Positions 12,810-29,965 of a stretch of 29,965 bases of DNA are shown here, one piece after another. The notes below the pieces were generated by a model, which was not told where the DNA came from, ran no database searches, and was given only the letters and a program-made list of their open reading frames with translations. The DNA comes from a virus. The stretch covers positions 1 to 29,965 of IMG/VR virus record IMGVR_UViG_3300017759_001836. One strand, written 5' to 3'. Made by a program: the position numbers and the translations under genes. Positions within the stretch are counted from its first letter, which is position 1. Each line of letters begins with the position of its first letter.

Positions 12810-14154
12810 AGAATTTACAAGGAAAGTATTACCTTTTATTCAGATAGAATACTTTGCTGATTCAATAGAAAGAAAAGTATTTAAAGAGATACAAGAGTTT
12901 GTAAATCGTTATGAGAAGTTACCTTCACATGAAGCTCTTGTAATTAACTTTACAGAGAAAAAAGAACTCACAGAAGATGAGGTTTCAAAATCAGTAGAGC
13001 TTCTTCATGAACTCAAAAAAACAAAAGATGAAAAAGTAGATATTACTTGGCTTACAGAACAGAGTGAAAAGTTTTGTCAAGACAAAGCTATCTACAATGC
13101 AATCATGGATTCGGTTGCAATACTAGATGATAAAAGTACAAAGAAAGCAAAAGGTGAAATACCAAAACTATTGAGTGATGCACTTGGTGTTTCATTCGAC
13201 AGGCACGTTGGTCATGATTACATGGACGATTACAACGAAAGGTATGACTTCTATCATAAAGTAGAAAGTAGAACGAAGTTTGACCTTGACTTGATGAACA
13301 AGATTACAAAAGGTGGTCTACCAGATAAAACTTTGAATGTATTGATGGCAGGTACTGGTGTTGGTAAAAGTTTGTTTATGTGTCATATGGCATCAGCTTG
13401 TTTATCTCAAGGTGATAATGTTTTGTATATTACATTAGAGATGGCTGAAGAAAAGATTGCAGAAAGAATTGATGCAAACTTATTGAACATTAGTTTGAAT
13501 GAACTTAGGTCCGTATCAAAAGAAGATTACGAAAACAAATTCAAAGTGTTGAGGTCTAAGACACAAGGTAAGTTAATCATCAAAGAATATCCAACGGCAG
13601 CTGCTTCAACATTACATTTCAGAGCCTTGTTAAGTGAATTGGCGATGAAGAAACAATTTAAACCAAATATTATATTTATTGATTACTTGAATATTTGTTC
13701 ATCATCAAGAGTAAGACCAGGTGGTACAATCAACTCTTATGTGTATGTAAAAGCAATTGCAGAAGAACTCCGTGGTCTTGCAGTTGAGTATGAACTACCA
13801 GTTGTATCAGCAACACAAACAACAAGGTCTGGTTTTACAAATTCAGATCCAGGTCTTGAAGATGTTTCAGAATCATTTGGTCTACCAGCGACTGCTGACT
13901 TTATGATTTCTTTAGTATCAAACGAACAACTTGAAGAACTAAATCAGATAATGGTCAAACAACAAAAGAATCGTTACAATGACCCAAGTTATTACAAGAA
14001 GTTTATTCTTGGTGTTGATAGAGCTAAGATGAGATTATATGATGTAGAACAAGGTGGTCAAGATGATATATTAGATGCAGGTCAAAATAACGGTCCTGAT
14101 AAACCGCTAAATACATTTGGCACAAAAGAAAAATTTGATGGATTTAAAGTATGA
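12763..14154 (+). CDS. 41: Replicative DNA helicase (gp41)
   Basis: This 463-residue DnaB-family helicase has the T4 gp41 layout: an N-terminal domain (about 1-150, beginning RLEQTILKNLVYNEEF), then the RecA-like ATPase with VLMAGTGVGKS (Walker A, G197-S203), VLYITLEMAEEKIAERID (Walker A-prime region) and IIFIDYLNIC (Walker B). KAIAEELRGLAVEYELPV and a switch glutamine in VSATQTTRS follow. FDRHVGHDYMDDYNERY in the linker strongly matches T4 'FDSYVGHDWMDDYEARW'. It forms a hexamer that unwinds the fork with the gp61 primase, which is not in this window. The start lies inside uvsX; ATG 12763 and the adjacent ATG 12766 are both possible. Confidence 0.96.
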   Translation: MMRLEQTILKNLVYNEEFTRKVLPFIQIEYFADSIERKVFKEIQEFVNRYEKLPSHEALVINFTEKKELTEDEVSKSVELLHELKKTKDEKVDITWLTEQSEKFCQDKAIYNAIMDSVAILDDKSTKKAKGEIPKLLSDALGVSFDRHVGHDYMDDYNERYDFYHKVESRTKFDLDLMNKITKGGLPDKTLNVLMAGTGVGKSLFMCHMASACLSQGDNVLYITLEMAEEKIAERIDANLLNISLNELRSVSKEDYENKFKVLRSKTQGKLIIKEYPTAAASTLHFRALLSELAMKKQFKPNIIFIDYLNICSSSRVRPGGTINSYVYVKAIAEELRGLAVEYELPVVSATQTTRSGFTNSDPGLEDVSESFGLPATADFMISLVSNEQLEELNQIMVKQQKNRYNDPSYYKKFILGVDRAKMRLYDVEQGGQDDILDAGQNNGPDKPLNTFGTKEKFDGFKV

Positions 14155-15269
14155 AAATAACTAGAGAACAAGCATTACATGGCGCCAAAGCCTTTTCAGA
14201 TTACTTTGATCGTTTTAAAAGTATCGCTGATTATATGCGAGATCAAAAACTAAATGCAGTTTCGGATATGCCTGTTGGTCTTCCAGGTATGGGGCCTGAA
14301 CTAGATTTGTTTAATGACTATGATATGCACCCAGAAGATATGAATATTGAGGTTCATAGAATGAAACAAGGACTGTGGGATAATTATCTATCAATCATTA
14401 CATCACATTCAAACATGGTAAGTGTACCAGGTAAAGAATTAAGATTAGGTGTATTAGAAAAGAATACAAACAAATGGCTTGGTTTCATTCGTCTTGGTTC
14501 ACCAGTAATCAACATGAAACCTAGAAACCAATTACTTGATTGTGTATTCACTCAAGATGCAAAAACAGCCAGATCATTTAATCAGACAACTGTTATGGGC
14601 TTTTCTATTGTACCATCACAACCATTTGGTTTCAATACACTTGGTGGTAAATTACTTGCAGCTATATGTTGTTCACACCATGTTCGTGAAATGATGAACA
14701 AGAAATATCCAGGTATGAATGTGTGTTTGTTTGAAACGACCAGTTTGTATGGGTCATCAAAGTCTAGTTCACAGTATGATGGTATGAAACCATTTCTCAG
14801 ATTCAAAGGTCTTACAGACTCTAATTTTTTACCATTGATGCACGGCAAACCATATGAAGATTTAAAAGATTATATGGAAGGTGCAGTTGGTGGTCCGGTT
14901 GTACCAGAAGATGCTTCATCAAGAAAACTTAAAATGTCTACAAAAATACAGGCTCTTATCAAGGCTAGTTTAGATGGCGAAGATTTGAAACGATACAATG
15001 ATACAATTAAGAATGCTCTTAATTTGACTGAAAAGAAACGATATTACGCCTCTTCCTATGGTTTCTCAAACTTTGTTGATGTAGTGACTGGTAAGACAGA
15101 TAAGTTGGTTCCAGACAAGGAGAACTACGATAAGCACCATCTGGAGAACGTAATTAAGTGGTGGAGAAAGAAAGCATCAAACAGATATGTGTCACTTAAA
15201 AACGACAAAAGACTTAGAAAAGAGTTAGAAGTATGGACAGGAGATAAAGAGATTGATATTATTCGGTAG
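14151..15269 (+). CDS. DUF4338/DruA-like protein
   Basis: The 372-residue protein overlaps gp41 by ATGA. The middle carries the segment order of DUF4338 (DruA family): LRLGVLEKNTNKWLGFIRLGSP, LLDCVFTQDAKT, FNQTTVMGFSIVPSQPFG, LGGKLLAAICCS, then MNVCLFETTSLYGSSKS and LRFKGLTDS. This corresponds to 'R.nl..vvnN.RFLilP.....nLas..La' followed by 'P.LlETfv....f.GtcY..aNw'. The C-terminal 100 residues are basic. DruA is the marker protein of the Druantia anti-phage system; a copy in a phage replication operon must do something else or act against competitors. This family call rests on pattern memory, so confidence is moderate. It is the last gene before a late promoter. Confidence 0.55.
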   Translation: MKITREQALHGAKAFSDYFDRFKSIADYMRDQKLNAVSDMPVGLPGMGPELDLFNDYDMHPEDMNIEVHRMKQGLWDNYLSIITSHSNMVSVPGKELRLGVLEKNTNKWLGFIRLGSPVINMKPRNQLLDCVFTQDAKTARSFNQTTVMGFSIVPSQPFGFNTLGGKLLAAICCSHHVREMMNKKYPGMNVCLFETTSLYGSSKSSSQYDGMKPFLRFKGLTDSNFLPLMHGKPYEDLKDYMEGAVGGPVVPEDASSRKLKMSTKIQALIKASLDGEDLKRYNDTIKNALNLTEKKRYYASSYGFSNFVDVVTGKTDKLVPDKENYDKHHLENVIKWWRKKASNRYVSLKNDKRLRKELEVWTGDKEIDIIR

Positions 15270-15316: not shown

Positions 15317-16621
15317 ATGGTAATGGCAGCTACAGCAGAAGCGGAAGGAGCACAGGCTTTGTTTTCATACATCGCTGATGTTTTAGGTACGGTAAAAGTA
15401 AACCGATTATGGAAACCTTATTTGAAAGGTGAAAAAAACTACACACAATTTAAGGAAGAGTTTAAAAGTGAAATAGACACAGGTTTTAGGACTAAGGCCA
15501 TAGAAACTGATTTACCAAAATCTCAAATTTTATCTTACTTAGGTAAAGATAATACAGGCAAGTCCTGGTTCATATCATCTCTTCTGATAGCCGAAAAACT
15601 AATTAAAGATATTGATAAAATTGATTCTAATTTTAGATACATTAAGAGACCGGGTTGGGGTGATGTTTTTTACGCAAGAGGTGATAAAGAGGTCATGGGT
15701 GTATTATCTAAATTATTTAAAGTAGCTAATGATTTTTCAAAGAAAGAGGATGGTAGGCCTTTTTTTGGTGACATAAACAAGTGGTCGCCAGCTGACATTT
15801 ACTTTGCGACCGATAAGGCTAAAAAAATGTTGAAATCTACATTATCTGATCCTCAAACAAAAGCTGGTAATTTTAGATTCGCTGAATTAAATGAAATGAT
15901 TTTTAAATTAATAGACAAAGGTCAATTACTGCCCTTATCATTAAAAAAAGTAGAAAGAACAGCAAACATAGTTGAAGTAAATTTCAATCGAAAAAAAGAG
16001 GAAAAATTACTTGCAGATACATTTGTTGTCGGTCCACAAAAATTTAATTTGATGACTGGTAAATACCAAATTAATAAACAGAAAAAAACTTTTGCATGGG
16101 TCAAGGATTATCCTATTGGCAAAGGTGCTTTTAGAGAAATAAAAATAGATGTTAAATCCGGGAACAAAGATGGTTTTATTCAGATAAGACATACTCCGGC
16201 CTCAAAAGGTAAACCACAAAAAGGTGTCAAGGTTATATTTGGATATAAAGGTGATGCAGCTCTAGGTGGTCAGTTAGTTGGTATACCGCTATTTACTAAA
16301 CAAATTTCTTTGATAGATAAAGGTTTTGCTAAGAAATTATCAGATACATGGAATCAAAACTACAAAAAGTTTGAAGAAGATGCAAACATTTATATAAAAT
16401 CAATTGGTGGTAGATTGTATAAAGGTAATAAAGAACAAAGAGAAACATTTAATAATGATATGGGTGCTATAAGTGGTCTAACAGTTATGAATGCTATTAG
16501 ACCATTAATTAGTGCTTATTTTAAAAATCCAAAGGAGAAACAACATAAGGTTCTAAGAGCTTTATTTGCTTATGTAACATCTAGGTCGATAAATTCTAGT
16601 CCTTTTGTAATCGCAAAATGA
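15317..16621 (+). CDS. Late protein of unknown function, possibly nuclease-like
   Basis: The 434-residue protein starts at ATG 15317, with AAGGAG (15304-15309) at 7-base spacing. It starts MVMAATAEAEGAQALFSYIA and contains RPGWGDVFYARGD. A central segment reads INKWSPADIYFA, then FAELNEMIFKLIDKGQLLPLSLKK. The order 'K.sPaDIwf ... lN......G.liplSLKK' recalls PD-(D/E)XK-like nucleases, with D and K residues at the expected spacing, but the fit is loose. It is placed under a late promoter and overlaps the ligase-fold gene by ATGA. A virion-associated protein without enzyme activity is equally possible. Confidence 0.5.
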   Translation: MVMAATAEAEGAQALFSYIADVLGTVKVNRLWKPYLKGEKNYTQFKEEFKSEIDTGFRTKAIETDLPKSQILSYLGKDNTGKSWFISSLLIAEKLIKDIDKIDSNFRYIKRPGWGDVFYARGDKEVMGVLSKLFKVANDFSKKEDGRPFFGDINKWSPADIYFATDKAKKMLKSTLSDPQTKAGNFRFAELNEMIFKLIDKGQLLPLSLKKVERTANIVEVNFNRKKEEKLLADTFVVGPQKFNLMTGKYQINKQKKTFAWVKDYPIGKGAFREIKIDVKSGNKDGFIQIRHTPASKGKPQKGVKVIFGYKGDAALGGQLVGIPLFTKQISLIDKGFAKKLSDTWNQNYKKFEEDANIYIKSIGGRLYKGNKEQRETFNNDMGAISGLTVMNAIRPLISAYFKNPKEKQHKVLRALFAYVTSRSINSSPFVIAK

Positions 16622-17847
16622 ATTTCACAGAATTTTTACAAGAAGCCAGACAAGACAAGAATCTTCACTTAGAACATTTAGAAGATAATATCTTGAATCG
16701 TGGTGTCGCTGGCGCCAGAGAGTCAATCAACTTTTTACAATCGTTGAGAGATATGCTTGCAGGTAAATCATCATCTAAAATAAATGTTACAACAAAATGG
16801 GATGGTGCCCCAGCTGTTTTTGCTGGTATAAATCCTGCAAATGGTAAGTTCTTTGTTGGTACTAAATCAGTATTCAATATAACACCTAAATTAAACTACA
16901 CAGATAAAGATATAGATAAGAACCACCCAACTGGTGGTCTGAATGAAAAACTTAAAACAGCCTTGGCATTTATACCAAAACTTGGTATCAAAGGTGTATT
17001 ACAAGGCGACATGATGTTTACAAAAGGAGATATAAAGAAAGAAACGATTGAAGGTGAAAGATACATTACATTTCAACCAAATACTATTGTCTACGCTGTG
17101 CCAGAAAATTCTATCTTAGCTAAGAAAATGCAGGCCGCTCAACTAGGTATTGTTTTTCATACCTCCTACTCCGGTAGGACACTCAGCACAATGAAGCCAT
17201 CTTTTAACATAGACATTGGTAGATTACAACCAACAAAAGATGTTTGGTTTCGTGATGCTTCTTTCACCGACGCCTCTGGTACCGCCACATTTACAGAGGC
17301 TGAAACAAGACAGATTACAAATATACTCTCTCAGGCAGGTAGAACATTCAGAACAATTAGTCCATTAGTGTTAAATCGTTTATCACTTAATGATAAAATA
17401 TTGATGGAAATAAAAACATTTAATAATAAATCAGTTCGTGCAGGTCAAAAGATAAGAAACACAAATGTACATACAATAAACTTAATAAGATTTGTTGAAG
17501 ATAAATTAAATAAAGAAATACTTAAAGCAAAAAGAGCCGACACAAAAAGAAAAAGGCAAAAAGAAAAAAGTGAAATGATGAGATTTTTTAGATCATCAGC
17601 GATGCAGTTAGTACAGATATTCAATCTAATGAATCAAATTGTTGATGCTAAACTAATTATTATTCGTAAGTTACAAGAGATGCGACAAGTTACAAATTCA
17701 TTTGTTAGAACAGATGATGGTTTCAAGATTACAAACCCAGAAGGTTTTGTTGCAGTTGACAAATTATCTGGTGGTGCATTGAAACTTGTTGATAGATTAG
17801 AATTTTCACACCAAAACTTCACAGTTAAGAAACAATGGGATAAGTAA
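16618..17847 (+). CDS. Ligase/nucleotidyltransferase-fold protein with capsid-targeting-like N-terminus
   Basis: The 409-residue protein carries the motif set of covalent nucleotidyltransferases (DNA/RNA ligases and capping enzymes): motif I TTKWDGAP (lysine K60, KxDG), motif III VLQGDMMF (G130, D131), motif IIIa-like IVFHTSY, motif IV EGFV (E375) and motif V GALKLVD (K389). In this superfamily K60 would be adenylated. It matches a family widespread in T4-like marine phages that I believe is DUF6267. Motifs III and IV are separated by a long basic helical insert (KRADTKRKRQKEK). The N-terminus MNFTEFLQEA resembles the T4 capsid-targeting sequence, with a possible cleavage after E9. Substrate is unknown: it may seal DNA or RNA ends or modify another molecule. 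Confidence 0.65.
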   Translation: MNFTEFLQEARQDKNLHLEHLEDNILNRGVAGARESINFLQSLRDMLAGKSSSKINVTTKWDGAPAVFAGINPANGKFFVGTKSVFNITPKLNYTDKDIDKNHPTGGLNEKLKTALAFIPKLGIKGVLQGDMMFTKGDIKKETIEGERYITFQPNTIVYAVPENSILAKKMQAAQLGIVFHTSYSGRTLSTMKPSFNIDIGRLQPTKDVWFRDASFTDASGTATFTEAETRQITNILSQAGRTFRTISPLVLNRLSLNDKILMEIKTFNNKSVRAGQKIRNTNVHTINLIRFVEDKLNKEILKAKRADTKRKRQKEKSEMMRFFRSSAMQLVQIFNLMNQIVDAKLIIIRKLQEMRQVTNSFVRTDDGFKITNPEGFVAVDKLSGGALKLVDRLEFSHQNFTVKKQWDK

Positions 17848-19243: not shown

Positions 19244-20116
19244 ATGAGAAATTTGATTATAGGTTGTGCTAGCAACTACGATTGGTCTACTTTACAATAT
19301 TGGTGTAACTCAATCAATCAATCTGGCTTTAAAGGTGACAAAGTTTTAGTCTTGATGAATTGTGATAAAGATACAGTTGTCAAAGTTGAACAGGCCGGTT
19401 TTAAAATCATAGGCTTCAACAAAGATAATGATGGTAATTTAGTGCATGACTCAAAAATGCCACCTCATGTTGAGAGATTTTTACATATTTACGAATACCT
19501 AAGAAGAGCAGAACCATATGATTGGGTTGTTACAACTGATGTAAAAGATGTAATCTTTCAAAGTGATCCATGTAAGTTTCTTGAAGATGAACTTTCAAAA
19601 AGCTATGAAAATGGTGACATCATGAGTGTATTACACGACTTAGCTTTTGCCTCAGAAAGTATATTATATAAAGATGAACCATGGGGTAATCAAAATCTAC
19701 TTGATACTTTTGGTCCTTATGTTCACGATATTTTCAAAGAGAATGAAATCTATAATGTAGGTGTTTTAGGTGGCACAGGTGAGGCTATGAAATCTTTGAT
19801 GATTAATATATTCTCAGCTTGTATGGGTAAACCAATATCAATTTGTGACCAATCTACATTTAACTTTATGATCTCACAACCCCCTTACAAAAGAACTTCA
19901 AAGTATTATAAGTCCGAAGATGGTTGGGCTTGCCAATTAGGCACGACTGTTGACCCAGCTAAGATAGAAGATTTTAAACCGAAACTATTAGAGAAATCAC
20001 CAATAATGGAAGCGGGCACAGTTAAAACTTCTACAGGAAAACCCTTTACAATTGTTCATCAATATGATAGGGTACCAGCATGGCGTCACATAATAGAAAT
20101 GAAATATGCAAAATGA
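19244..20116 (+). CDS. Glycosyltransferase-like protein
   Basis: This 290-residue protein begins NLIIGCASNYDWSTL and carries VVTTDVKDVIFQSDP, a DxxD metal-site variant like that of GT-A enzymes, followed by EIYNVGVLGGTGEAM and FTIVHQYDRVP (His and Asp near the end, as in GT8-like proteins). GGAG lies 9 bases before ATG 19244. It heads a run of eight tightly packed sugar-related genes. Donor and acceptor are unknown. The 16-base gap before it holds no clear late promoter (TATATAAAATA is only a loose match). Confidence 0.7.
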   Translation: MRNLIIGCASNYDWSTLQYWCNSINQSGFKGDKVLVLMNCDKDTVVKVEQAGFKIIGFNKDNDGNLVHDSKMPPHVERFLHIYEYLRRAEPYDWVVTTDVKDVIFQSDPCKFLEDELSKSYENGDIMSVLHDLAFASESILYKDEPWGNQNLLDTFGPYVHDIFKENEIYNVGVLGGTGEAMKSLMINIFSACMGKPISICDQSTFNFMISQPPYKRTSKYYKSEDGWACQLGTTVDPAKIEDFKPKLLEKSPIMEAGTVKTSTGKPFTIVHQYDRVPAWRHIIEMKYAK

Positions 20117-20820
20117 AAATAGCTTTATGTATATCTGGGCAACCTAGATGTTTTGAAAAAGGTTATGAATATCACTACAAAAACATCATAGAAAATAATG
20201 ATGTTGATGTTTTTATTCATACATGGAAATCTGCTAGTTTAAATGAGTTGATAGACCTTTACAGACCAAAAGGTAGTATGATAGAAGAGTCGGTGAAACC
20301 AAACTTATCAAAATATACAAGGGTACCACCGCCTCAACCAAATTGGAAGGTTAAGAATCCAGCTCTTTCAACTTATGCACAACTATATGCAATTAAAAAA
20401 TGTAATCAACTTAAAGTACAAGAAGAGATTAAAACTAAAATAGTTTATGATTGGGTCATACGTTCAAGATTTGATTTTGCAATTAATGTTCCTATACCTT
20501 TTGATGAACTAGATAATAATAAATTACATATACCAAATTGTAGAATGACACCCGAAAGAGATTTTGGTAATGACCAGTTTGCTTTTTCTGGTTCAAGAGT
20601 AATGAACGCCTATACTAAAGCATTTGATTATATTGATTATCATTATGACAAAGGCACACAAATGATGTGTGAAGATTTAATGAGTGCTAATTGGAAATAT
20701 CATGACATGATTGGTGAAAACTTAGTTTATTGTAACATCAATCATCCTTTTCCTCCAGGTAAATACAACGGAACTTGGCACTCTTTGATTAGAGAGGATT
20801 TTGAACAATGGGCAGTTTGA
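20113..20820 (+). CDS. Putative glycosyltransferase (second in cassette)
   Basis: This 235-residue protein starts at ATG 20113, overlapping the previous stop (ATGA); an upstream ATG at 20080 in the same frame lies inside the previous gene and is rejected. The N-terminus MKIALCISGQPR plus VDVFIHTW is typical of a phage and bacterial polysaccharide family whose members usually start 'kiAlCisGq.R'. YDWVIRSRFDFAI contains an RxRFD motif, and NDQFAFSGSRVM follows. It probably adds a sugar to a surface glycan. It overlaps the next gene by 13 bases. Confidence 0.65.
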   Translation: MKIALCISGQPRCFEKGYEYHYKNIIENNDVDVFIHTWKSASLNELIDLYRPKGSMIEESVKPNLSKYTRVPPPQPNWKVKNPALSTYAQLYAIKKCNQLKVQEEIKTKIVYDWVIRSRFDFAINVPIPFDELDNNKLHIPNCRMTPERDFGNDQFAFSGSRVMNAYTKAFDYIDYHYDKGTQMMCEDLMSANWKYHDMIGENLVYCNINHPFPPGKYNGTWHSLIREDFEQWAV

Positions 20821-21548
20821 TTATATGTATGGCTGGTTTAAATACTAGATTTCATGATGTTGGTTTTGATGTACCAAAATACTTATTACCATGGCGTGAT
20901 ACTTGTATTGTAGCCGCAATTGTTGATGAGTTTCAAAAAGATTATAAGTTTGATGATGTAATATTACTTGCAAATAAAAGAGATGAATATTTTAAAGACG
21001 ATTTAGTCAAAGAAATAAAAAAGATAGGTCTTTCAGAAAAGAATATACATTATGTTGGTGATACAAATGGTCAAGCACACACAGCTTATATTGGTGCGAC
21101 ATTAGTTAAAGATGAACAAAAACCAATATACATTCATAATGCAGATACATTTCTAACAAATAGAGATTTTAAAGATATAGAAGATAAGTTAATTGGCATA
21201 ACTGGTGCGAGAGCTTATGTTGATATATTTGTTGCAAATAATCCTAATTACTCATATGTCAAAAAAGAGGGTGAACATATTTTAGGTATAGTAGAGAAGG
21301 ATGTAATTTCACCATTTGCAAGTTCTGGTTTATATTGTTTTCATTCAGCTTGGGAATATAAAGATTGTTTTGAGAATATAAATAATTCTAAAGAGATATA
21401 CATAGCAGATATAATATCTAGTGTATTGGATATGAATAGTAAAGTTATGACAAATGAGTTAGTAACAAATCAAGAAACTATTGTTCTTGGTTCACCTGAA
21501 GAATATAGCATGGAATATACAAAATGGCAAATAAAGAAACGAAACTAA
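20808..21548 (+). CDS. Sugar-1-phosphate nucleotidyltransferase-like protein
   Basis: The 246-residue protein carries the nucleotidyltransferase signature MAGLNTRFHDVGFDVPKYLLP (M8 onward, with R14 and K24 as the nucleotide-contacting residues), then YIHNADTF, which supplies the metal-binding aspartate. ILGIVEKD and SSGLYCF fit the sugar-binding half. Such enzymes make NDP-sugars from sugar-1-phosphate and NTP. It overlaps both neighbours and sits just before a kinase and a cyclase, so its substrate may be the product of those enzymes. The nucleotide is unknown. Confidence 0.8.
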   Translation: MGSLIICMAGLNTRFHDVGFDVPKYLLPWRDTCIVAAIVDEFQKDYKFDDVILLANKRDEYFKDDLVKEIKKIGLSEKNIHYVGDTNGQAHTAYIGATLVKDEQKPIYIHNADTFLTNRDFKDIEDKLIGITGARAYVDIFVANNPNYSYVKKEGEHILGIVEKDVISPFASSGLYCFHSAWEYKDCFENINNSKEIYIADIISSVLDMNSKVMTNELVTNQETIVLGSPEEYSMEYTKWQIKKRN

Positions 21549-22498
21549 AAGGCGGGTCGTTAAGTTCAACAACTTTAATTGATTATGGCGACAAAAAGAT
21601 TGTAAGAAAAAAAGTATCTCTTTTTAAAGACCGTGAGTATGGTTATGTGAGATGGTATAGCCAACTTAAAAAACTACAAAAGTTTGAATCTGATTTACCA
21701 GGTTTATTTCCTAGAATCTTAAATGTATCTTGTGATGAACACAACGCATATTTTGATTTAGAGTATCTTCAAAACTACAAAAACATATCTGAAATATTAT
21801 CAGATGCAAGTTTAGCCGAATATGAGGTTGAAAAAATATACCATGCCTTTGTAACTGGTCTTAGAGCAATACATAAAATTTCATATGCACCTAATCCAGG
21901 AGCACCTCTTTTATATTTCAAAGAAGAGGTAGAACAAAAAATAGATGATGCTAATAAATTTGAAGCTTTTTTTAATTTCTATAATTTAGGAACATATGAG
22001 TATGATGGCCGGATAGTTCATGGTATCACTAATTACTTTGATGAACTTAGAAACTATTTTACTGAATTAGAATTAGAAAGTGAAGAGCAAATACATGGTA
22101 ATCCTACCCTTGAAAATACAATGTATTCTTTCGTAGATGATAAAGTTGTATTCATAGACCCATATGAAGAGAGTATAATTGATACTAAGTTTTTGGATTA
22201 TGCAATGGTTCTTCAAAGTAGTCGTAGTCATTATGAAATATATAATAAGGGTTTTGTTAGATATGAAGATGAAATGCCAATGATAATTATAGATGGTGTC
22301 ATACCAGAACCATTAAAACATTTTAATCATTTGTTTCAATCTGATTTGAAATCAGAAGATAAAAGACTTGTTGATATTTTAGAAGCTACACAATTCATTC
22401 GTATGTTACCATTTAAATGTGCAGCTGGTCATTTATCACACGCTAAATATTTTTATCTTCATGCCTGTAAACTATTGGGGAATTGTTTTAGTGAATAA
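21524..22498 (+). CDS. APH-type kinase-like protein with altered active site
   Basis: The 324-residue protein is built like aminoglycoside/choline phosphotransferases: TLIDYGDKKIVRKKV at the start (lysine K29 region), FDLEYLQNYKNIS (hinge), and the catalytic pair HGNPTLEN (H191-N198) and VFIDPYE (D212). In active members the first motif is HGDxxxxN; here the catalytic Asp is Asn193. The second Asp (metal binding) is kept. The protein may be a kinase with altered chemistry or may have lost activity. In a sugar cassette it would phosphorylate a sugar or cyclitol. It overlaps the nucleotidyltransferase gene by 25 bases and the cyclase by 8. Confidence 0.65.
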   Translation: MANKETKLKGGSLSSTTLIDYGDKKIVRKKVSLFKDREYGYVRWYSQLKKLQKFESDLPGLFPRILNVSCDEHNAYFDLEYLQNYKNISEILSDASLAEYEVEKIYHAFVTGLRAIHKISYAPNPGAPLLYFKEEVEQKIDDANKFEAFFNFYNLGTYEYDGRIVHGITNYFDELRNYFTELELESEEQIHGNPTLENTMYSFVDDKVVFIDPYEESIIDTKFLDYAMVLQSSRSHYEIYNKGFVRYEDEMPMIIIDGVIPEPLKHFNHLFQSDLKSEDKRLVDILEATQFIRMLPFKCAAGHLSHAKYFYLHACKLLGNCFSE

Positions 22499-23627
22499 TC
22501 TTTTAGTGAATTTTAATCAATCAAAAAGAACTTGGCAAGTAGATGCCTCCTTACCAATCTCATTTACAATACATTATTCAAAAGATATTTTTGATCCTAA
22601 AAATCATGACTTAATCAATTATAGTGATGGTAAAAGATCATTGATTATTTGTGATGAAACTGTATATGATTTGTATGGTGAACAAATCACAAATTATTTT
22701 ACTACGATAAAACAAGATTATGATCTATTGAATATTGGTTGTTCTGAAGCAAATAAAACATGGAACACAACAAATAAAATATTAGAGTTCTTTGAAGAAA
22801 ATGAAGTAGCAAGAAGAGAACCAATTATTGCAATAGGTGGTGGTGTTTTATTAGATATTGTTGGTTTTGCTTGTAGTATATTCAGAAGAGGGATACCTTA
22901 CATAAAAATACCAACAACTCTTTTGGCCATTGTAGATGCCTCAGTTGGTGTAAAAGTTGCAACAAATCATTTTGAAAGAAGAAATAGACTAGGTGCATAC
23001 TACCCACCAATTGCAACACTCATAGATAAAAAGTTTGTAAAGACTCAAGATGAAAGAGAAATAGTAAATGGTCTTGCAGAGATATTTAAATTAGCTGTAA
23101 TCAAATCTGAAGAATTATTTGATTTGATGGAAGAAAATAGTCATCAGTTAATTGAAGAGAAGTTTCAATATGGCGCTGTACCAGTTCGTGTAATCAATCT
23201 TGCTATAACAGAAATGATAGAAGAGTTATCACCTAATTTATGGGAAAAGAATTTAGATCGTTGTGTAGATTTTGGACATACATTTAGTCCACTTATAGAA
23301 ATGAGAAACATGGAATATTTGTTACATGGTGAAGCCGTAACATTAGATTGTTTGTTTAGTTCTTGTATTGCATATCATAGAAACTTACTTTCACATACAG
23401 ATTTGATGAGAATATTTAACTTAGCCAAAAATCTAAAATTACCTACAAGACATCCAGCTTTTATGAATAGTGATGAGATTAAAGAGTCATTATCTGATAC
23501 TATGAAACATAGAAATAATAAACAAAGAATACCGGTACCTGTGAGTATTGGTAATTATAAATTTATAAACGACCTTTCAGAACAAGATATACTCAAGGTT
23601 ACAAAAATTTATGAGGCACTTTCATGA
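22491..23627 (+). CDS. Sugar-phosphate cyclase, EEVS-like (AroB superfamily)
   Basis: The 378-residue protein is a dehydroquinate-synthase-superfamily enzyme. It has the NAD site IAIGGGVLLDIVGF (G116-G118) and zinc ligands E197 (GLAEIFK), H263 (FGHTFSP) and H279 (LLHGEAV). Several positions follow 2-epi-5-epi-valiolone synthase rather than 3-dehydroquinate synthase: CSIFRRGIPYIKIPTT, VGVKVATN with RRNRLGAYYPP (AroB has GGKTGIN and KN.IGAFYQP), and GHTFSP in place of GHTFGHAIE. EEVS cyclizes sedoheptulose-7-phosphate. The start is taken as GTG 22491, preceded by GGGG and overlapping the upstream stop; an ATG at 22419 would lie deep inside the kinase gene. A shikimate-type or other cyclase role remains possible. 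Confidence 0.75.
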   Translation: MNNLLVNFNQSKRTWQVDASLPISFTIHYSKDIFDPKNHDLINYSDGKRSLIICDETVYDLYGEQITNYFTTIKQDYDLLNIGCSEANKTWNTTNKILEFFEENEVARREPIIAIGGGVLLDIVGFACSIFRRGIPYIKIPTTLLAIVDASVGVKVATNHFERRNRLGAYYPPIATLIDKKFVKTQDEREIVNGLAEIFKLAVIKSEELFDLMEENSHQLIEEKFQYGAVPVRVINLAITEMIEELSPNLWEKNLDRCVDFGHTFSPLIEMRNMEYLLHGEAVTLDCLFSSCIAYHRNLLSHTDLMRIFNLAKNLKLPTRHPAFMNSDEIKESLSDTMKHRNNKQRIPVPVSIGNYKFINDLSEQDILKVTKIYEALS

Positions 23628-24322
23628 CTATAAAACCAAATATATTTAAGAAAAGAGTTTTAGTTACGGGTTCAACAAAAGGTATTGGTAGAGCCATAAC
23701 AGAAAAATTTTTAAATGAAGATTATGAGGTTGTAGGTTTTGCTAGAAGTGGTGCTAATAAATTAACTCACGAAAGTTATCAGCATTGTACTGCCGATATT
23801 GGAATTCCAGATATGGTTGAAGCTTTATCTCATAGATTATCCGATAAGAAGATTGATATATTGGTTAACAATGCAGCTGTTTTTGAATACAAACCTTTTG
23901 TTGATATGAATTGGCAAGAAATACAATACATGGTAGATGTTAATTTAAAAGGTGCTATGTATGTTACTAAGTATTTTTTACCTTTGATGAATGATGCCTC
24001 TAAAATATTTTTTATAAACTCAGTTGCAGGTCTTGAACAGTTAGAAAATCAATCTGTATATTGTGCAACAAAACATGGTCTTACAGCTTTTGCTGGTATT
24101 CTTGGTAAAGAATTAAAAGAAAGAAAAATTAAAGTAACAAGTATACATCCAGGTGGTGTCAATACACCAATGTGGAAAGACAATGTAGATTTTCACGATA
24201 AGTTAGATGAGTTATTGAGACCTGAAGATGTAGCAGATATGGTTTACTATATCTCACAACAACACTATAATGTAGAAACTAAAACAATTAAAATGTACCC
24301 AGAGATAGAATGGCATCAATAG
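23624..24322 (+). CDS. SDR-family oxidoreductase
   Basis: This 232-residue classical short-chain dehydrogenase has the cofactor loop TGSTKGIGR (T15-R23), NNAA in ILVNNAAVF, a catalytic serine in FINSVAG, and YxxxK in YCATK (Y146, K150), followed by IHPGGVNTPM. R11 and R23 near the cofactor loop would allow NADP(H). The enzyme likely oxidizes or reduces a sugar or cyclitol hydroxyl. It overlaps the cyclase by ATGA and is followed within the same transcript by a glycosyltransferase-like gene, so it should act on the cyclase product or a derivative. Confidence 0.9.
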   Translation: MTIKPNIFKKRVLVTGSTKGIGRAITEKFLNEDYEVVGFARSGANKLTHESYQHCTADIGIPDMVEALSHRLSDKKIDILVNNAAVFEYKPFVDMNWQEIQYMVDVNLKGAMYVTKYFLPLMNDASKIFFINSVAGLEQLENQSVYCATKHGLTAFAGILGKELKERKIKVTSIHPGGVNTPMWKDNVDFHDKLDELLRPEDVADMVYYISQQHYNVETKTIKMYPEIEWHQ

Positions 24323-25020
24323 TACCTGATAAGAATTTATTTATTGTAACTTCAGCTTTAGAACCTACAATTGGTGTGATAAGTAAAGAAGATAGATTTA
24401 AACAAACTATTGCAACTTTAGAAAATTTAAGAGAGAAAGTACCAAACGCCTTTATCTTATTTTCTGATGGTTCACCAGGTGCCTGTGATGATAATAGTAT
24501 GAAACAGATTGCTAAGTTTATTAACGGTGCTGTATATTGGGCCCATGATGAACAGATAAGAGAGTTATCTCAAACTGGTAGAAAGAGTGAGGCTGAAATT
24601 GCTCTATTACTCAAAACACTTTTCTTATTAAAACAACATCCAGATTTAAGTAAGTTAATGTATTCTGTAAAAAGAATTTTTAAGTATTCAGCTAGATCAT
24701 TACTACAAAATAAATTTAAAATCAGCATTTATGACAATGCTAAATTATATGGTAAATATGTTTTTAAAGAAAGATTACCAAGTTGGACAGATAAGAGTAT
24801 AACAGATCATTTATTCATTACTAGATTTTTTTCTTTATGTCCATCTTTGGTGGATGATTATATTAGAACTTTAAATAAGGCCCTAAACACTTGTATGACT
24901 CATGGTATAGATACAGAACACGCACACTTTAAAGAAACAAATAAAAAATATGTAGTAGAGCTTAGACGTATTCACGTTGAGGGTATTATGGCTGGAACTG
25001 GAAAAAAAGAGGAATATTGA
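24310..25020 (+). CDS. Unknown cassette protein, glycosyltransferase-like
   Basis: This 236-residue protein starts at ATG 24310, overlapping the SDR by 13 bases. It begins with a beta strand (NLFIVTSALEPT), then IATLENLREKVPNAFILFSDG, an arrangement like a GT-A N-terminus but without a clear DxD. RIFKYSARSLLQNKFKI resembles 'fKlSGRY.L...F' of glycan-related proteins in T4-like marine phages. EHAHFKE near the end may hold catalytic residues. I cannot name its substrate. Confidence 0.55.
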   Translation: MASIVPDKNLFIVTSALEPTIGVISKEDRFKQTIATLENLREKVPNAFILFSDGSPGACDDNSMKQIAKFINGAVYWAHDEQIRELSQTGRKSEAEIALLLKTLFLLKQHPDLSKLMYSVKRIFKYSARSLLQNKFKISIYDNAKLYGKYVFKERLPSWTDKSITDHLFITRFFSLCPSLVDDYIRTLNKALNTCMTHGIDTEHAHFKETNKKYVVELRRIHVEGIMAGTGKKEEY

Positions 25021-25021
25021 T

Positions 25022-25753
25022 ATGAATTTATGGAAATACTTTTTAGAAAATGATGGTAATAAAATTACAAGATGGACTCATTACTTTCCGATTTATGAAA
25101 AACACTTTGAAAGGTTTAAAAATAAACCAGTAAAGATATTAGAGATTGGTGTTTTAAATGGTGGGTCTTTACCAATGTGGCAAAAATATTTTGGCCCACT
25201 TTCAAAGATAGTTGCAATAGATATAACACCATCTTGTAAAAATTATGAGATACCTGGTACAATAGTTCGTATAGGTGACCAATCAGATGAAAAATTTTTA
25301 CAAGAGTTAGTAGATGAATTTGGTGAATTTGATATTATCATAGATGATGGTAGTCATCAAGTCGCTCATGTAAACAAAACATTTCAGTATTTGTACCCTA
25401 GAATGTCTAAGAACGGAGTTTATCTTGTTGAAGATACACACGCAGCTTATTGGGAAGATACTCATGGTGGTGGTTTAAATGAGCCAGAATCAATTATAAA
25501 TGTATCTAAAAACTTGGTAGATAAACTTAATGCAGACCATACAAGAGGTCAAGTAGAACCAGATGATTTCACTAGGTCTACTCAATCAATTACATTTTAT
25601 GATAGTGTAATTGTATTTGAAAGAGGTGAGATACATTGGAAACAACCATTAGAGTTTGGTAAAAACACACCGATGGATTATGCACCTAATCCTGAACTAG
25701 AACAAGCTAAAAACTCAGCGCCAGATATGGGAGATTTCACCATAAAAACCTAA
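25022..25753 (+). CDS. Sugar O-methyltransferase-like (SAM-dependent, MycE/TylF-type)
   Basis: This 243-residue class I methyltransferase starts at ATG 25022 with AGAGGA upstream; an earlier ATG at 24977 is inside the previous gene. Motif I is ILEIGVLNGGS, a second acidic motif is VAIDIT, and IIIDDGSHQVAHV with VYLVEDTHAAYW provides the metal/SAM-site aspartates and histidines. This DDGSH...ED(T)....Y order is that of macrolide sugar O-methyltransferases such as MycE. It probably methylates a sugar or cyclitol hydroxyl, as expected for capping of a glycan. It closes the cassette. Confidence 0.8.
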   Translation: MNLWKYFLENDGNKITRWTHYFPIYEKHFERFKNKPVKILEIGVLNGGSLPMWQKYFGPLSKIVAIDITPSCKNYEIPGTIVRIGDQSDEKFLQELVDEFGEFDIIIDDGSHQVAHVNKTFQYLYPRMSKNGVYLVEDTHAAYWEDTHGGGLNEPESIINVSKNLVDKLNADHTRGQVEPDDFTRSTQSITFYDSVIVFERGEIHWKQPLEFGKNTPMDYAPNPELEQAKNSAPDMGDFTIKT

Positions 25754-25756
25754 ATG

Positions 25757-25764
25757 TATAAATA
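25757..25764 (+). promoter_or_regulatory. T4-type late promoter, perfect match
   Basis: TATAAATA is an exact match to the T4 late promoter, followed by CC. It starts 4 bases after the methyltransferase stop and 41 bases before the next start, in the only gap of this region. Confidence 0.8.
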
Positions 25765-25797: not shown

Positions 25798-27618
25798 ATG
25801 AAATTCCTAGACTACATACAGGAAAACAAAGATAAACACGCCGTTTTATCATTCGGTAGAATGAATCCGATTACAAAAGGGCATGAAAAACTTGTTAATA
25901 AGGCACAACAAATTGCCAGACAAGTTGGTGGCTCTCATCATATCGTGTTATCTCATAGTCAAGACAAGAATAAAAACCCACTTAAACCAGCTGATAAGTT
26001 AAAACACGCCAAGAAGGCATTTCCACGTGCCAATCTATCTACCTCAGATAAAGAAAGTCCAAACTACCTAACACAGGCAGCTAAGTTACATAAGAAAGGT
26101 GTATCACACCTACACGTTGTCGCAGGTTCAGACCGTGTTTCAGAGTTTAAAAACACTCTCAATAGATATAATGGTTCACATTCAAAAGCATTATATAATT
26201 TTAAAAATATAAAAGTACACTCATCTGGTGATAGAGACCCAGATAGTCATGGTACATCTGGTATGTCAGGTACAAAGATGAGAGGTCATGCAGCTTCAGG
26301 TAATTACAAGGCATTTAAGTCTGGTGCACCATCAGGTATGAGTGATAGTCATGTAAAACATATGTACAATGATACTCGTAAGGGTATGAAGATTGCAGAA
26401 GATGTTGCAGTATTTTTGATTGGTGGACCTGGTTCAGGTAAAGATTTCATATTTAAAACCATAATGGAAGATTTTGGTCTTTCAGAAATGAATACAGATA
26501 AGGCCTTTGAGTATCTTATCTCAGAGAGTTATAACACACATAAAAGAACAAACATTGTCATCAACGGCAATGCACATGAGATAAAAATATTAGAACAAAT
26601 AAAAGAAAGATTGGAAGAACAAGGTTATAAAACAGCGATGGTTCTTGTTTCTACATCTGATGAAGTATCAAAGCAGAGAAATGAAAGTAGAAAAAGAATG
26701 ATGAATGAAGAATTAAGATTTAAGAAATGGAACCTCGTAAATATGGTCAAACCATATTTTGAAGATGTGTTTAAAGACGATTATATTGAGTTTGATAATT
26801 CAGATGAAATATCTGATGAGAGTATTATCGACCTCAAAGAATGGTTGGAGAGTAGAATGTCAAATGATATAAAAGATATTGATGAAATATTTGAAGATTA
26901 TTTTGATGAGGATTTAAGAAAATGGTTTTCTAAAGATCACCCTACTGGTGATTGGAAGAGGATCGATTCCAAGGGCAACGTAGCAGGCCCTTGTGCAAGG
27001 GAACCAGGTGAACCAAAGCCTAAATGTATGTCAAAGGCAAAAAGAGCTAAACTTTCTAAGAGTGAACGTGCAGCTGCTGTAAGAGCTAAACGCAAACATG
27101 ACCCAGTTGCTAATAGAGCTGGTAAAGGTGGTAAACCAATAAATGTTTCCAATTTTGGTAAAGGTAAATTGACAAAGGAGGCAGTAGATGATAGGCAATA
27201 TGATTCGCAAATTAGTGAAAGAAGAGTTAGTGAAAATGTTGGTGGAAATATTTCCAGAGAAAAGAAAGGCAATATCAACAAAGATTTTAACGCCTGGTAT
27301 GCAGGCTCCAACACTAGCAAATACTTCAAACCGGACGAACTCTCGGAGGAGAACAGCGAACACAGCATCACAGAGAAAACGCAGGCAATATCGACAAAGA
27401 AAATCGAAGAATCAATCGATCGAGGTATAGAACCTGGTATGGCTCTGAACTCTTTTTCTAAAGAGTATAATAATCGGCGCAAAGGAGGAAAAGTGGTGCC
27501 GTTCAAAGAACTAACGGGCGACACCACTACAGCCTCAATTGGGGCACAGAAAGAAGATGAGTTAAAGAAAAAAGGTATAAATTTAAAAACATTTAGAGCA
27601 AAAAGGCCAATTGGATGA
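25798..27618 (+). CDS. Nucleotidyltransferase/P-loop fusion with capsid-targeting-like N-terminus
   Basis: The 606-residue protein is probably multi-domain. Residues 1-9 (MKFLDYIQE) resemble the T4 capsid-targeting sequence. About 14-185 form a cytidylyltransferase-type domain: SFGRMNPITKGH (T26, G28, H29), VAGSDR (110-113) and SGTKMR (157-162, like ISSTxxR). At 209-216 is GGPGSGKD, a P-loop whose last residue is Asp instead of Thr/Ser, followed by kinase-like segments. About 360-450 is a basic conserved module (DLRKWFSKDHPTGDWKR, KCMSKAKRAKLSKSERA), then a tail ending in ELTGDTTTASIGAQKEDEL. The domain order recalls NadR (NMN adenylyltransferase plus kinase), but substrate is unknown. Bases 27301-27420 are near 46% G+C, well above the surrounding sequence. 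Confidence 0.7.
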   Translation: MKFLDYIQENKDKHAVLSFGRMNPITKGHEKLVNKAQQIARQVGGSHHIVLSHSQDKNKNPLKPADKLKHAKKAFPRANLSTSDKESPNYLTQAAKLHKKGVSHLHVVAGSDRVSEFKNTLNRYNGSHSKALYNFKNIKVHSSGDRDPDSHGTSGMSGTKMRGHAASGNYKAFKSGAPSGMSDSHVKHMYNDTRKGMKIAEDVAVFLIGGPGSGKDFIFKTIMEDFGLSEMNTDKAFEYLISESYNTHKRTNIVINGNAHEIKILEQIKERLEEQGYKTAMVLVSTSDEVSKQRNESRKRMMNEELRFKKWNLVNMVKPYFEDVFKDDYIEFDNSDEISDESIIDLKEWLESRMSNDIKDIDEIFEDYFDEDLRKWFSKDHPTGDWKRIDSKGNVAGPCAREPGEPKPKCMSKAKRAKLSKSERAAAVRAKRKHDPVANRAGKGGKPINVSNFGKGKLTKEAVDDRQYDSQISERRVSENVGGNISREKKGNINKDFNAWYAGSNTSKYFKPDELSEENSEHSITEKTQAISTKKIEESIDRGIEPGMALNSFSKEYNNRRKGGKVVPFKELTGDTTTASIGAQKEDELKKKGINLKTFRAKRPIG

Positions 27619-27923
27619 AAACATTTGCACAATTTATAAATGAAGATAAATCACCTGCGTGGACAAGGTCCGCTGGTAAAAATCCAGAAGGTGGTTTAAA
27701 TCAAAAGGGTGTTGAGTCTTATCGCCGTGAAAACCCTGGTTCAAAATTAAAAACAGCAGTTACAACAAAACCAAGTAAATTGAAAAAAGGTTCTAAAGCT
27801 GCTAAAAGAAGATTATCATTCTGCCGGAGAATGAAAGGGATGAAAAAGAAGCTAACCTCAGCCAAAACAGCTAGAGATCCAGATAGCCGAATTAACAAAT
27901 CATTAAGAAAATGGAACTGCTAA
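27615..27923 (+). CDS. Small basic protein with capsid-targeting-like N-terminus
   Basis: The 102-residue protein overlaps the previous stop (ATGA). Its first ten residues, MKTFAQFINE, line up with MKTYQEFIAE, the T4 internal-protein capsid-targeting sequence as I recall it: six identities plus F for Y. Cleavage after E10 would leave about 92 residues, rich in Lys and Arg. The body reads PAWTRSAGKNPEGGLNQKG, then a basic stretch (KLKKGSKAAKRRLSFCRRM), and ends ARDPDSRINKSLRKWNC. It belongs to a conserved marine T4-like family (I think DUF6321). It probably binds DNA inside the head. The terminal Cys and the Cys in SFCRRM are conserved-looking. Confidence 0.75.
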   Translation: MKTFAQFINEDKSPAWTRSAGKNPEGGLNQKGVESYRRENPGSKLKTAVTTKPSKLKKGSKAAKRRLSFCRRMKGMKKKLTSAKTARDPDSRINKSLRKWNC

Positions 27924-27938
27924 ACATAGGAGAAAGTA

Positions 27939-29965
27939 ATGCAACACGATAATAAAGTAACTAGAAACGTAGCTGATGCGGCTCTCAAGGTATTGATGGG
28001 AGAAGAGCCAGATAACCAGCAGTTTACTCAAGAGCTAGAAAAGAACAAGGTCAAAGCTTCTACGAAGAAATCTCCTGAAGATGAGGCTAGGGTCGCTAAA
28101 GGTAATGTTGATGCTGTTGACACCGTAAAAGAAGAGCTTAAAGGTGGTCAAAAGAATATTGACATGAATAAGAACGGTAAGATAGATGCAGAAGATTTTA
28201 AAATGCTTCGCAAGAAAAAGCCTGCAAAACGTGTTGTTCACTCAGATAGACCTGATAGTCTAGTTAGTATGAAAGTTTCTAAAGAAGAAGTTGAAGAGTT
28301 AGATGAACTATCACCAAAAACTTTAGGTTCTTATGCAACAAAAGCCGGTATGGATGCAAGAAGTAGAGCCGCTCATGGAGCTGGTGCTTACATGATGGGC
28401 TCAACGGGAGAGGCAAAACAACAAGCAGATAAAAGTGATAAACGTATGGCAGGTGTAAAGAAAGCAATAAACAAATTAACTAAAGAACAAGATGAGAGCT
28501 TAGAAGAAGGTAAACTTAAAGACTTGGTCACAGGACATATGGACGATGGTCACTCATTTGATACAGCTATGAAGAAGGCACAGGCTGACTTAAATAAGAT
28601 GGCAGTTAAGAAGGCATCTGATGAACATCCAGAGGCTAAGTTTAGAACTAACCCATTGAAACCAGTTATGTCAAAGTCTGATAGAGAGTCATCAAAGAAG
28701 AACTTAGGAAAACTTCTGAATAAGAAGATGCAGAAAGAAGCAAACAAACCATCGCCTGCTATGGCAGATGCTTTTGCAAAGTTAAGAGCTGGTGGTTCTC
28801 GCATACAAGATGGACCATCTAATGTTACGAAAACATCAACTGGTCTTATACACAGAGCTAAATTAGCAAAAGGTCCAAAATATGGTGTAACTGATTTCAC
28901 AAAGAATGTAGAAGATAGTGAGGCAGAAGGACCAAAGGGCACTAAGAGAAAAGGTTATGGTGCTAGACAAAACAAAGTTCGCAGTACCAGAGTAAGTGGT
29001 AAAGATGTGAATGAGAGTTTTGGTTTTACCGCTATGTTAGAGTCATATCAAGAAAAAGGTCTTGGTTTCATTAAACAAATGAATGAAGAGATTGAACTTT
29101 TAGATGAAAAGAATAAACCAACAAATCCAGCATTATGGGCTAGGGCAAAGGCAGCTGCAAAGTCTAAGTTTGATGTATACCCATCAGCATATGCAAATGG
29201 TTGGGCCGCCAAATGGTATAAGAAGAGAGGTGGTGGTTGGAAATCTGTGAAAGAAGAAGTTGAGCAAATAGAGGAGGCCACTCCCACAAAAAAAGAAGTT
29301 AAGCAGGGTATTGGGATAGCTCGTGATAAAAGATATGCAAAAGGTAATATGTCTGGTGCTGTAAAGGCTATGGACAAGGTCAATAAAGGTATCGCACAAC
29401 ACCCTGCTGTAGCAAAAGAGTTGAGAAAGCAAAACGAGAGCTCTAACTTTAAAGATTTAAGACATCAATTAGATGAACTATCACCAAAGACTCTAGGGTC
29501 TTATGCTCAAAAATCTGTAAGAGATTTAGAGAAACGTGATAGGGCCATGGGTAAGGCAACACAAAGAGATAGAGAAGTTGTGGATCCAGAAACAAGCAAA
29601 CCTTTTCAAAAAATGGCTAAGAGAAGGTCTGGGTTGACAAAAGCGATAAACAGATTATCTAAAGAAGAAGTTGAACAGTTAGATGAACTATCACCAAAGA
29701 CTTTAGGTTCTTATGCTAAAAAAGCACAAAGACAAACCATGAATACAAATATGGCAATAGGTGCTAATTCTACTGATAATCCAGTTACACGAAGAGAAAA
29801 GGCCTTTGCTAAGAAAAGAAAAGAAGGTGCTAGTAGAGCGATTGGTAAGTTAGTTCAAAAGAAAATGTCTAATGAAGATGTAGAACAGATTGATGAACTT
29901 AAATCAAAAACGCTAAAGAGTTATATAAGCAAAGCAGGTAAAGATTTATCAAAGAGAGTTGCAGA
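27939..29965 (+). CDS. Large repeat protein with EF-hand loop (3' truncated)
   Basis: The frame is open from ATG 27939, preceded by AGGAGA, to the window end, giving about 675 residues with the stop outside. Residues 75-86 (DMNKNGKIDAED) form a full EF-hand calcium loop pattern. From residue 121 a module begins LDELSPKTLGSYATKA and ends in KKAINKLTKE; a long middle follows with LESYQE and a conserved PTNPALWARAK...DVYPSAYANGW segment (about 394-436), then three more copies at 511, 581 and 651. The protein is lysine-rich, with no signal peptide or membrane span, and is probably a late virion or internal protein. Similar repeat modules are common in T4-like marine phages. Function is unknown. 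Confidence 0.75.
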   Translation, partial: MQHDNKVTRNVADAALKVLMGEEPDNQQFTQELEKNKVKASTKKSPEDEARVAKGNVDAVDTVKEELKGGQKNIDMNKNGKIDAEDFKMLRKKKPAKRVVHSDRPDSLVSMKVSKEEVEELDELSPKTLGSYATKAGMDARSRAAHGAGAYMMGSTGEAKQQADKSDKRMAGVKKAINKLTKEQDESLEEGKLKDLVTGHMDDGHSFDTAMKKAQADLNKMAVKKASDEHPEAKFRTNPLKPVMSKSDRESSKKNLGKLLNKKMQKEANKPSPAMADAFAKLRAGGSRIQDGPSNVTKTSTGLIHRAKLAKGPKYGVTDFTKNVEDSEAEGPKGTKRKGYGARQNKVRSTRVSGKDVNESFGFTAMLESYQEKGLGFIKQMNEEIELLDEKNKPTNPALWARAKAAAKSKFDVYPSAYANGWAAKWYKKRGGGWKSVKEEVEQIEEATPTKKEVKQGIGIARDKRYAKGNMSGAVKAMDKVNKGIAQHPAVAKELRKQNESSNFKDLRHQLDELSPKTLGSYAQKSVRDLEKRDRAMGKATQRDREVVDPETSKPFQKMAKRRSGLTKAINRLSKEEVEQLDELSPKTLGSYAKKAQRQTMNTNMAIGANSTDNPVTRREKAFAKKRKEGASRAIGKLVQKKMSNEDVEQIDELKSKTLKSYISKAGKDLSKRVA
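28161..28196 (+). other. EF-hand calcium-binding loop in the repeat protein
   Basis: The twelve codons for DMNKNGKIDAED place Asp, Asn, Asn, a backbone position, Asp and a final Asp at the usual EF-hand positions 1, 3, 5, 7, 9 and 12, with Gly at 6 and Ile at 8. Only one loop is seen, as in dockerin-like or unpaired EF-hand proteins. Confidence 0.6.
28299..28490 (+). repeat. Repeat module copy 1 (LDELSPKTLGSY)
   Basis: This is the first of four in-frame copies, about 64 codons, starting with L121. It shares a 59-base near-identical stretch (28278-28336) with copy 3 (29658-29716), differing at two bases, 1,380 bases away. The ending KKAINKLTKE recurs in the later copies. Confidence 0.85.
29469..29965 (+). 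repeat. Tandem repeat copies 2-4, 70-codon period
   Basis: Copies start at 29469 (codon 511), 29679 (codon 581) and 29889 (codon 651), exactly 210 bases apart. Copies 2 and 3 keep LDELSPKTLGSYA; copy 4 is diverged (IDELKSKTLKSY) and runs off the window. Each unit ends with a basic 'R..G..kAI.kL' helix and EE/ED-VEQ. Confidence 0.9.

Follow-up and report, generated by a model that had tools for sequence, protein, structure and literature searches.

The prohead protease gp21 of bacteriophage T4 cleaves after L/I-X-E, and processing is blocked when the IPIII tag carries Asp at that position (PMC9026906). The T4 internal proteins are described as diverse defence proteins in which the targeting sequence alone is conserved (PMC3012670). 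For the polyvalent proteins of phages and conjugative elements, an analogy to polyproteins was drawn by the authors themselves (PMC5512222). The literature compared here, each paper represented by a part of its text, includes PMC9026906, PMC5694885, PMC5512222, PMC10665884, PMC9964418, PMC9602691, PMC9503650, PMC3012670, PMC12085832, and PMC9004378. T4 internal proteins and core proteins cut at multiple sites are already known; a cargo polyprotein that is shuffled and cut by the prohead protease was not found described in these parts of the literature, which lies mostly outside subscription journals.

The window analyzed here is the whole 29,965-nucleotide stretch of a viral contig. Analysis of its gene content revealed a T4-like neighborhood with a DNA polymerase (phrog_262), which is about 50% identical to its best matches, from cyanophages, UvsX (11745-12809), and a DnaB-type helicase. 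After the helicase gene, a DruA-like protein is encoded at 14151-15269 inside the phage replication region (matches to Pfam DruA [PF14236, E=1.5e-8] and phrog_19197, full length). At the window end, a modular ORF (27939-29963, plus strand; ORF 27939) was located, of which 675 aa are visible. The first-pass annotation had stated that this frame continues beyond the window, and indeed no stop occurs up to the contig end. Judged from its sequence, ORF 27939 probably encodes a head-targeted polyprotein, the phage being a Kyanoviridae-like marine phage of the T4 type. Cleavage of this polyprotein by the prohead protease would yield small basic internal proteins, and shuffling of the modules would diversify them. 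The coordinates of the features are given in Table 1.

Table 1. Module, repeat and neighboring features of the window
Feature	Position	Strand	Remark
phrog_1462-like protein, S-SCSM1 ORF90 homologue	15317..16621	+	
DUF6267 protein, start MNFTEFLQE	16618..17847	+	
TATAAATA, presumed T4-type late-promoter sequence, in gap before 25798	25757..25764	+	weak
Cytidylyltransferase/NMNAT-like, kinase-like and module regions, start MKFLDYIQE	25798..27618	+	
DUF6321 protein, start MKTFAQFINE	27615..27923	+	
Modular ORF, putative polyprotein	27939..29965	+	675 aa seen, runs past contig end
N-terminal segment ending ..LMGE	27939..28004	+	sequence; proposed head-targeting propeptide, role inferred
59-base repeat copy A (linker plus LSPKTLGSY)	28278..28336	+	
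LDE junction 1	28299..28307	+	
LGSY module 1, closing in LEE junction	28308..28508	+	
HMDDGH / GARQN stretch (200 aa), closing in LDE junction	28509..29108	+	
SAYANGW module, closing in IEE junction	29109..29276	+	DUF5872-like, below Pfam cut-off
KQGIGIARDKR (KQG) module, closing in LDE junction	29277..29477	+	
LGSY module 2, closing in LDE junction	29478..29687	+	
59-base repeat copy B	29658..29716	+	
LGSY module 3, closing in IDE junction	29688..29897	+	predicted helical hairpin
LGSY module 4 (LKSKTLKSY), incomplete	29898..29963	+	

Tandem modules of 70 codons, four in all with three spaced exactly 210 bases, and a 59-base direct repeat had been annotated in this ORF. Four LGSY-type copies were located, starting at 28278, 29448, 29658, and 29868. 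Their spacings of 1170, 210, and 210 bases confirm the tandem for copies 2 to 4 and remove copy 1 from it; about 1 kb of other modules separates LGSY module 1 from module 2. The 210-base array was not reported by Tandem Repeats Finder. The 59-base repeat was found as described, with copies 1 and 3 differing at 2 of 59 bases and lying 1,380 bases (460 codons) apart in frame. Copy 4 is divergent (69% to the reference) and truncated by the contig end. Splitting of the ORF at its seven [IL]xE motifs gave the order LGSY, 200-aa stretch, SAYANGW, KQG, LGSY, LGSY, and partial LGSY. The protein is lysine-rich (K+R 142 versus D+E 97). Assuming cuts at the junctions, the segments from LGSY module 1 on have a net charge of +3 to +12 and the stretch before module 1 a net charge of 0; if cut in this way, ORF 27939 would give the small basic products typical of T4-type internal head proteins.

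The raw count of [IL]xE motifs in ORF 27939 is not above chance (7 versus 4.5 expected, P=0.16). All seven have the form [IL][DE]E, of which 0.7 were expected (0 of 2,000 shuffles reached 7), and all seven are positioned at module junctions. The L/I-x-E signature of gp21-processed proteins was found at 7/7 junctions, which by sequence look like gp21-type prohead protease sites. The N-terminal site of the ORF itself is LMGE, with M at P3, at the end of a 22-aa segment; the corresponding segments of relatives close with MLGE or MIGE. Enrichment of [IL]xE was also detected in the neighboring ORF 25798 (15 versus 4.9 expected, P=0.0005) and in relatives L005 (two ORFs), L006, and L007 (P=0.0035 to 0.022), in which [IL]xD is not raised. 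The same shuffle comparison revealed no [IL]xE enrichment in the DNA polymerase, UvsX, the helicase, or ORFs 15317, 16618, and 18142.

Conservation of the junctions was then analyzed in three module families. Before counting, ORFs shorter than 60 aa, proteins containing X, modules too near the ORF start, and linker-plus-module stretches identical to one another were removed. A first set of 53 distinct SAYANGW modules had E at P1 in every case (P3 L in 31, I in 19, and F in 3), with mixed P2 residues and varied upstream contexts. Because the linker had been part of the query used to rank these loci by similarity, the test was redone with a DNA pattern restricted to the module core. In this core-anchored set of 90 distinct placed modules (8 further modules were unplaceable), E was found at P1 in register in 76, with L, I, F, or M at P3. 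The exceptions, read by eye, comprised 8 modules with the junction E displaced by a few residues and 6 without it (L167, L173, L183, L259, L266, and L272). All 35 LGSY modules had E at P1 and either I or L at P3, including 14/14 from loci fetched without the LGSY pattern; in a wider ORF set, E was present in 37/37. KQG modules were preceded by [ILF]xE at the expected distance in 30 of 41 cases, and the remaining 11 all had E by eye (P3 V in 7, M in 2, Q in 1, and one shifted I-E-E). Asp was common at P2 and was found at P1 in none of the SAYANGW, LGSY, and KQG sets. Part of this linker conservation could reflect shared descent.

Analysis of related records revealed an S77 prohead protease in 7/12 and 12/22 module-bearing records, many of which are fragments. 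The protease was found in 0/5 records without the linker Glu versus 12/17 others, a weak contrast because those five records are short (4 to 62 kb). Inspection by eye of capsid proteins from related records predicted a maturation site of the form [LIFM]xE in 12/12 (e.g., FLSE|A, MLTE|A, LLSE|A, and LINE|A). Neither a protease nor a capsid gene was found among the window ORFs, which were scanned in part with family libraries. Tracking of the capsid-site P3 by the linker P3 was considered and discarded, since the linker group with F at P3 has L in its capsid sites and no covariation is shown. The KNCPTDP-type loci (L213, L175, and others) form a separate phage group with FLE instead of [IL]xE before SAYANGW and with larger gp23-like capsid proteins.

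These data bear on the explanation that ORF 27939 encodes an uncut modular repeat protein, with acidic linkers that serve as flexible joints or binding motifs and repeats that merely vary the length. The repeats and the shuffling are real, and junction cleavage is so far a prediction; both points would fit an uncut chain. Glu, not Asp, is nevertheless present at P1 in three module families with P2 free, and the capsid propeptides share the motif, which a plain acidic joint would not need. We consider an uncut protein quite improbable.

Module number and order were compared among relatives. The number varies, as the first-pass annotation had suggested: of 26 distinct complete ORFs, 20 contain one LGSY module, 3 contain two, and 3 contain three. 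Order and content differ among the window, L005, L006, L007, and L252. Modules of close relatives are 95 to 97% identical with swapped order; in L006, the counterparts of window modules 3 and 2 stand the other way round, with 171/180 and 175/180 identical bases. The KQG modules of the window and L006 share 147/162 bases. Because the LGSY count varies and near-identical modules are reordered in the closest relatives, the constant module number that would have spoken against length variation was looked for and not encountered. Exchange by UvsX, which the annotation had proposed and which this phage encodes, is a possible route. The earlier description as a repeat protein is correct for the repeats and the length variation and has to be modified in that the repeat combines a motif of the prohead-protease cleavage type with one of several modules that are interchangeable. 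A module protein of 1,173 aa was also found on a 524-kb viral contig (L056:5227-8748), so the modules reach jumbo-sized phages too.

Structural models were generated for LGSY module 3 and the KQG module (mean pLDDT, 79.0 and 78.7; pTM, 0.58 and 0.46). LGSY module 3 was modeled as a hairpin of two helices, with pLDDT values below 50 for its final four residues, which form the junction, and the KQG module was modeled as helical. Comparison of both models with PDB folds revealed generic helices and nothing at E<=0.001. A tblastn search of the phage collection with LGSY module 3 alone gave no matches. Dockerin and EF-hand matches were below the Pfam cut-off. The SAYANGW module (29109-29276) resembles DUF5872, a domain annotated also in an alga-infecting giant virus in the part of PMC12085832 consulted; SAYANGW-type modules are possibly shared between phages and giant viruses.

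The domain searches also address the possibility of a polyvalent effector (Iyer et al. 2017), i.e., a multidomain protein injected whole or cut by its own peptidase. ORF 27939 would resemble such proteins in being multidomain, likely virion-borne, and shuffled. Its visible part, the ORF being incomplete, contains no Pfam peptidase or effector domain and so lacks the embedded peptidase or effector domains that characterize polyvalent proteins, for which the processing described in the available text is by an embedded metallopeptidase (PMC5512222). We consider a polyvalent effector highly improbable.

The genes adjacent to ORF 27939 were inspected for N-terminal tags. ORFs 16618, 25798, and 27615 have tags of roughly 10 aa that end in [I/L]xE; in ORF 27939, the N-terminal segment has 22 aa and ends in LMGE. 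The start of ORF 27615 is like that of T4 IPII and IPIII (MKTYQEFIAE). In a sample of ORFs of at least 150 aa from the fetched loci, [ILF]xE ended at residues 7 to 16 in 60/163 module ORFs versus 368/1,519 others (Fisher P=0.0009), and a stricter CTS-like pattern was present in 33/163 versus 83/1,519; some of the control ORFs are surely not genes. The CTS-like N-terminal motif is only moderately commoner in module ORFs than in others. The element TATAAATA, which we take to be a T4-type late-promoter sequence, has just 2 matches in the window, a number below chance expectation, and is weak evidence. ORF 25798-27618 contains a cytidylyltransferase/NMNAT-like domain, homologues of which occur in 533 phage records; a Zeta-toxin/AAA-like kinase region and a module-like tail come after this domain. 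Between the module-gene regions lies a sugar cassette (19244-25753) with a nucleotidyltransferase-like protein, a kinase-like protein (by eye), an SDR oxidoreductase, an AroB-related sugar-phosphate cyclase (22419-23627), and others. This cassette may modify a surface glycan.

Homologues of the neighbors of ORF 27939 and of one module type were found in published cyanophage virion proteomes. Purified S-CREM2 virions yielded 4, 3, and 7 unique peptides of ORFs 137, 154, and 160, respectively, and peptide coverage of the homologous virion proteins was low, at 4 to 13% (PMC10665884, Table 3, in the part of the paper available). ORF 137 matches ORF 27615 of the window (46% over 95 aa), ORF 154 matches ORF 25798 (33% over 209 aa), and ORF 160 matches the module stretch of ORF 25798 (40% over 72 aa). 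The match of ORF 160 to ORF 27939 itself (48% over 27 aa, E=0.007) is the sole direct link of the latter to a protein detected by mass spectrometry. In S-SCSM1, ORFs 89 to 93 are located downstream of the uvsX and helicase genes and are virion proteins according to the record annotation. Mass-spectrometric detection is given in the available text for ORF91 (PMC9602691), and ORFs 89, 90, 92, and 93 are assigned by record labels. ORF90 matches ORF 15317 of the window, ORF91 matches ORF 25798, and the linker NKEEVELDE is present in ORF92.

Presence in virions would distinguish the proposed cargo from assembly core. The same junctions could be cut if the modules were a scaffold, mostly degraded and expelled like gp22, gp67, and gp68. 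T4 core proteins are reported to be cut into multiple fragments that are mostly removed (PMC9026906, in part), and a lysine-rich protein with modules predicted to be helical would suit this role. Homologous modules and neighbors are, however, present in purified virions, the module makeup varies strongly among close relatives, unlike that of conserved core genes, and one neighbor has enzyme-like domains. A core or scaffold function appears unlikely.

For the head-targeted polyprotein, the following mechanism is proposed. The late gene product would enter the prohead core, probably via its N-terminal propeptide, and a phage S77 prohead protease (gp21 type) would cut after each [I/L]-x-E junction, as in the capsid protein. 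Separate small modules of about 20 to 90 aa, mostly net basic, would be released. At least some of them would remain with the packaged DNA and behave like T4 internal proteins, binding DNA and/or acting in the host after ejection. Because near-identical linkers precede the modules, recombination could add, drop, or permute modules with the frame kept. The junction motif, its E-specific conservation, and the protease in related genomes are backed by sequence and published data, as are the capsid motif, the shuffling of modules, and the finding of homologues in virions; for ORF 27939, we infer cleavage, targeting, retention, ejection, module functions, and the recombination route. More tentatively, with somewhat less than even confidence, we suggest a combinatorial cargo of interchangeable modules that are reshuffled by recombination at their linkers, cut inside proheads, and brought in together with the DNA as varied anti-defence or takeover proteins. 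Among the hypothetical proteins of abundant marine T4-like phages, many may be such head-cargo chains with boundaries readable from sequence. If true, unannotated ORFs could be converted into predicted mature proteins, cyanophage virion proteins without assigned function would make sense, and a testable case of an injected protein arsenal diversified without added genes would be available.

The locus was compared with known systems. T4 gp22 and gp67 are likewise single proteins with several cuts by the same protease type; they are conserved scaffolds, whereas the modules described here vary in number and order and have homologues in mature virions. Ejection proteins of phiKZ-like phages and SPN3US are, in the texts available, likewise carried in the head, and a gp21 relative cleaves them on the C-terminal side of Glu. 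Their sites are S/A-x-E or A-x-E, long N-terminal propeptides are removed, and a chain of interchangeable modules was not found described there. Polyvalent proteins of phages and conjugative elements also combine several functions in one injected chain, as far as described in the available part of PMC5512222, but they carry effector domains and an embedded peptidase, neither of which was found in ORF 27939. With T4 IPI, IPII, IPIII, and Alt, the locus would share the proposed N-terminal targeting tag ending in [I/L]xE (neighbor 27615), gp21-type cutting, and mostly basic and small products. Sequence homology is claimed for the tag alone. T4 encodes one small internal protein per gene, whereas here many shuffled modules with internal junctions are joined in one ORF. 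By analogy, a diversity of the T4 internal protein type could here be packed into one chain.
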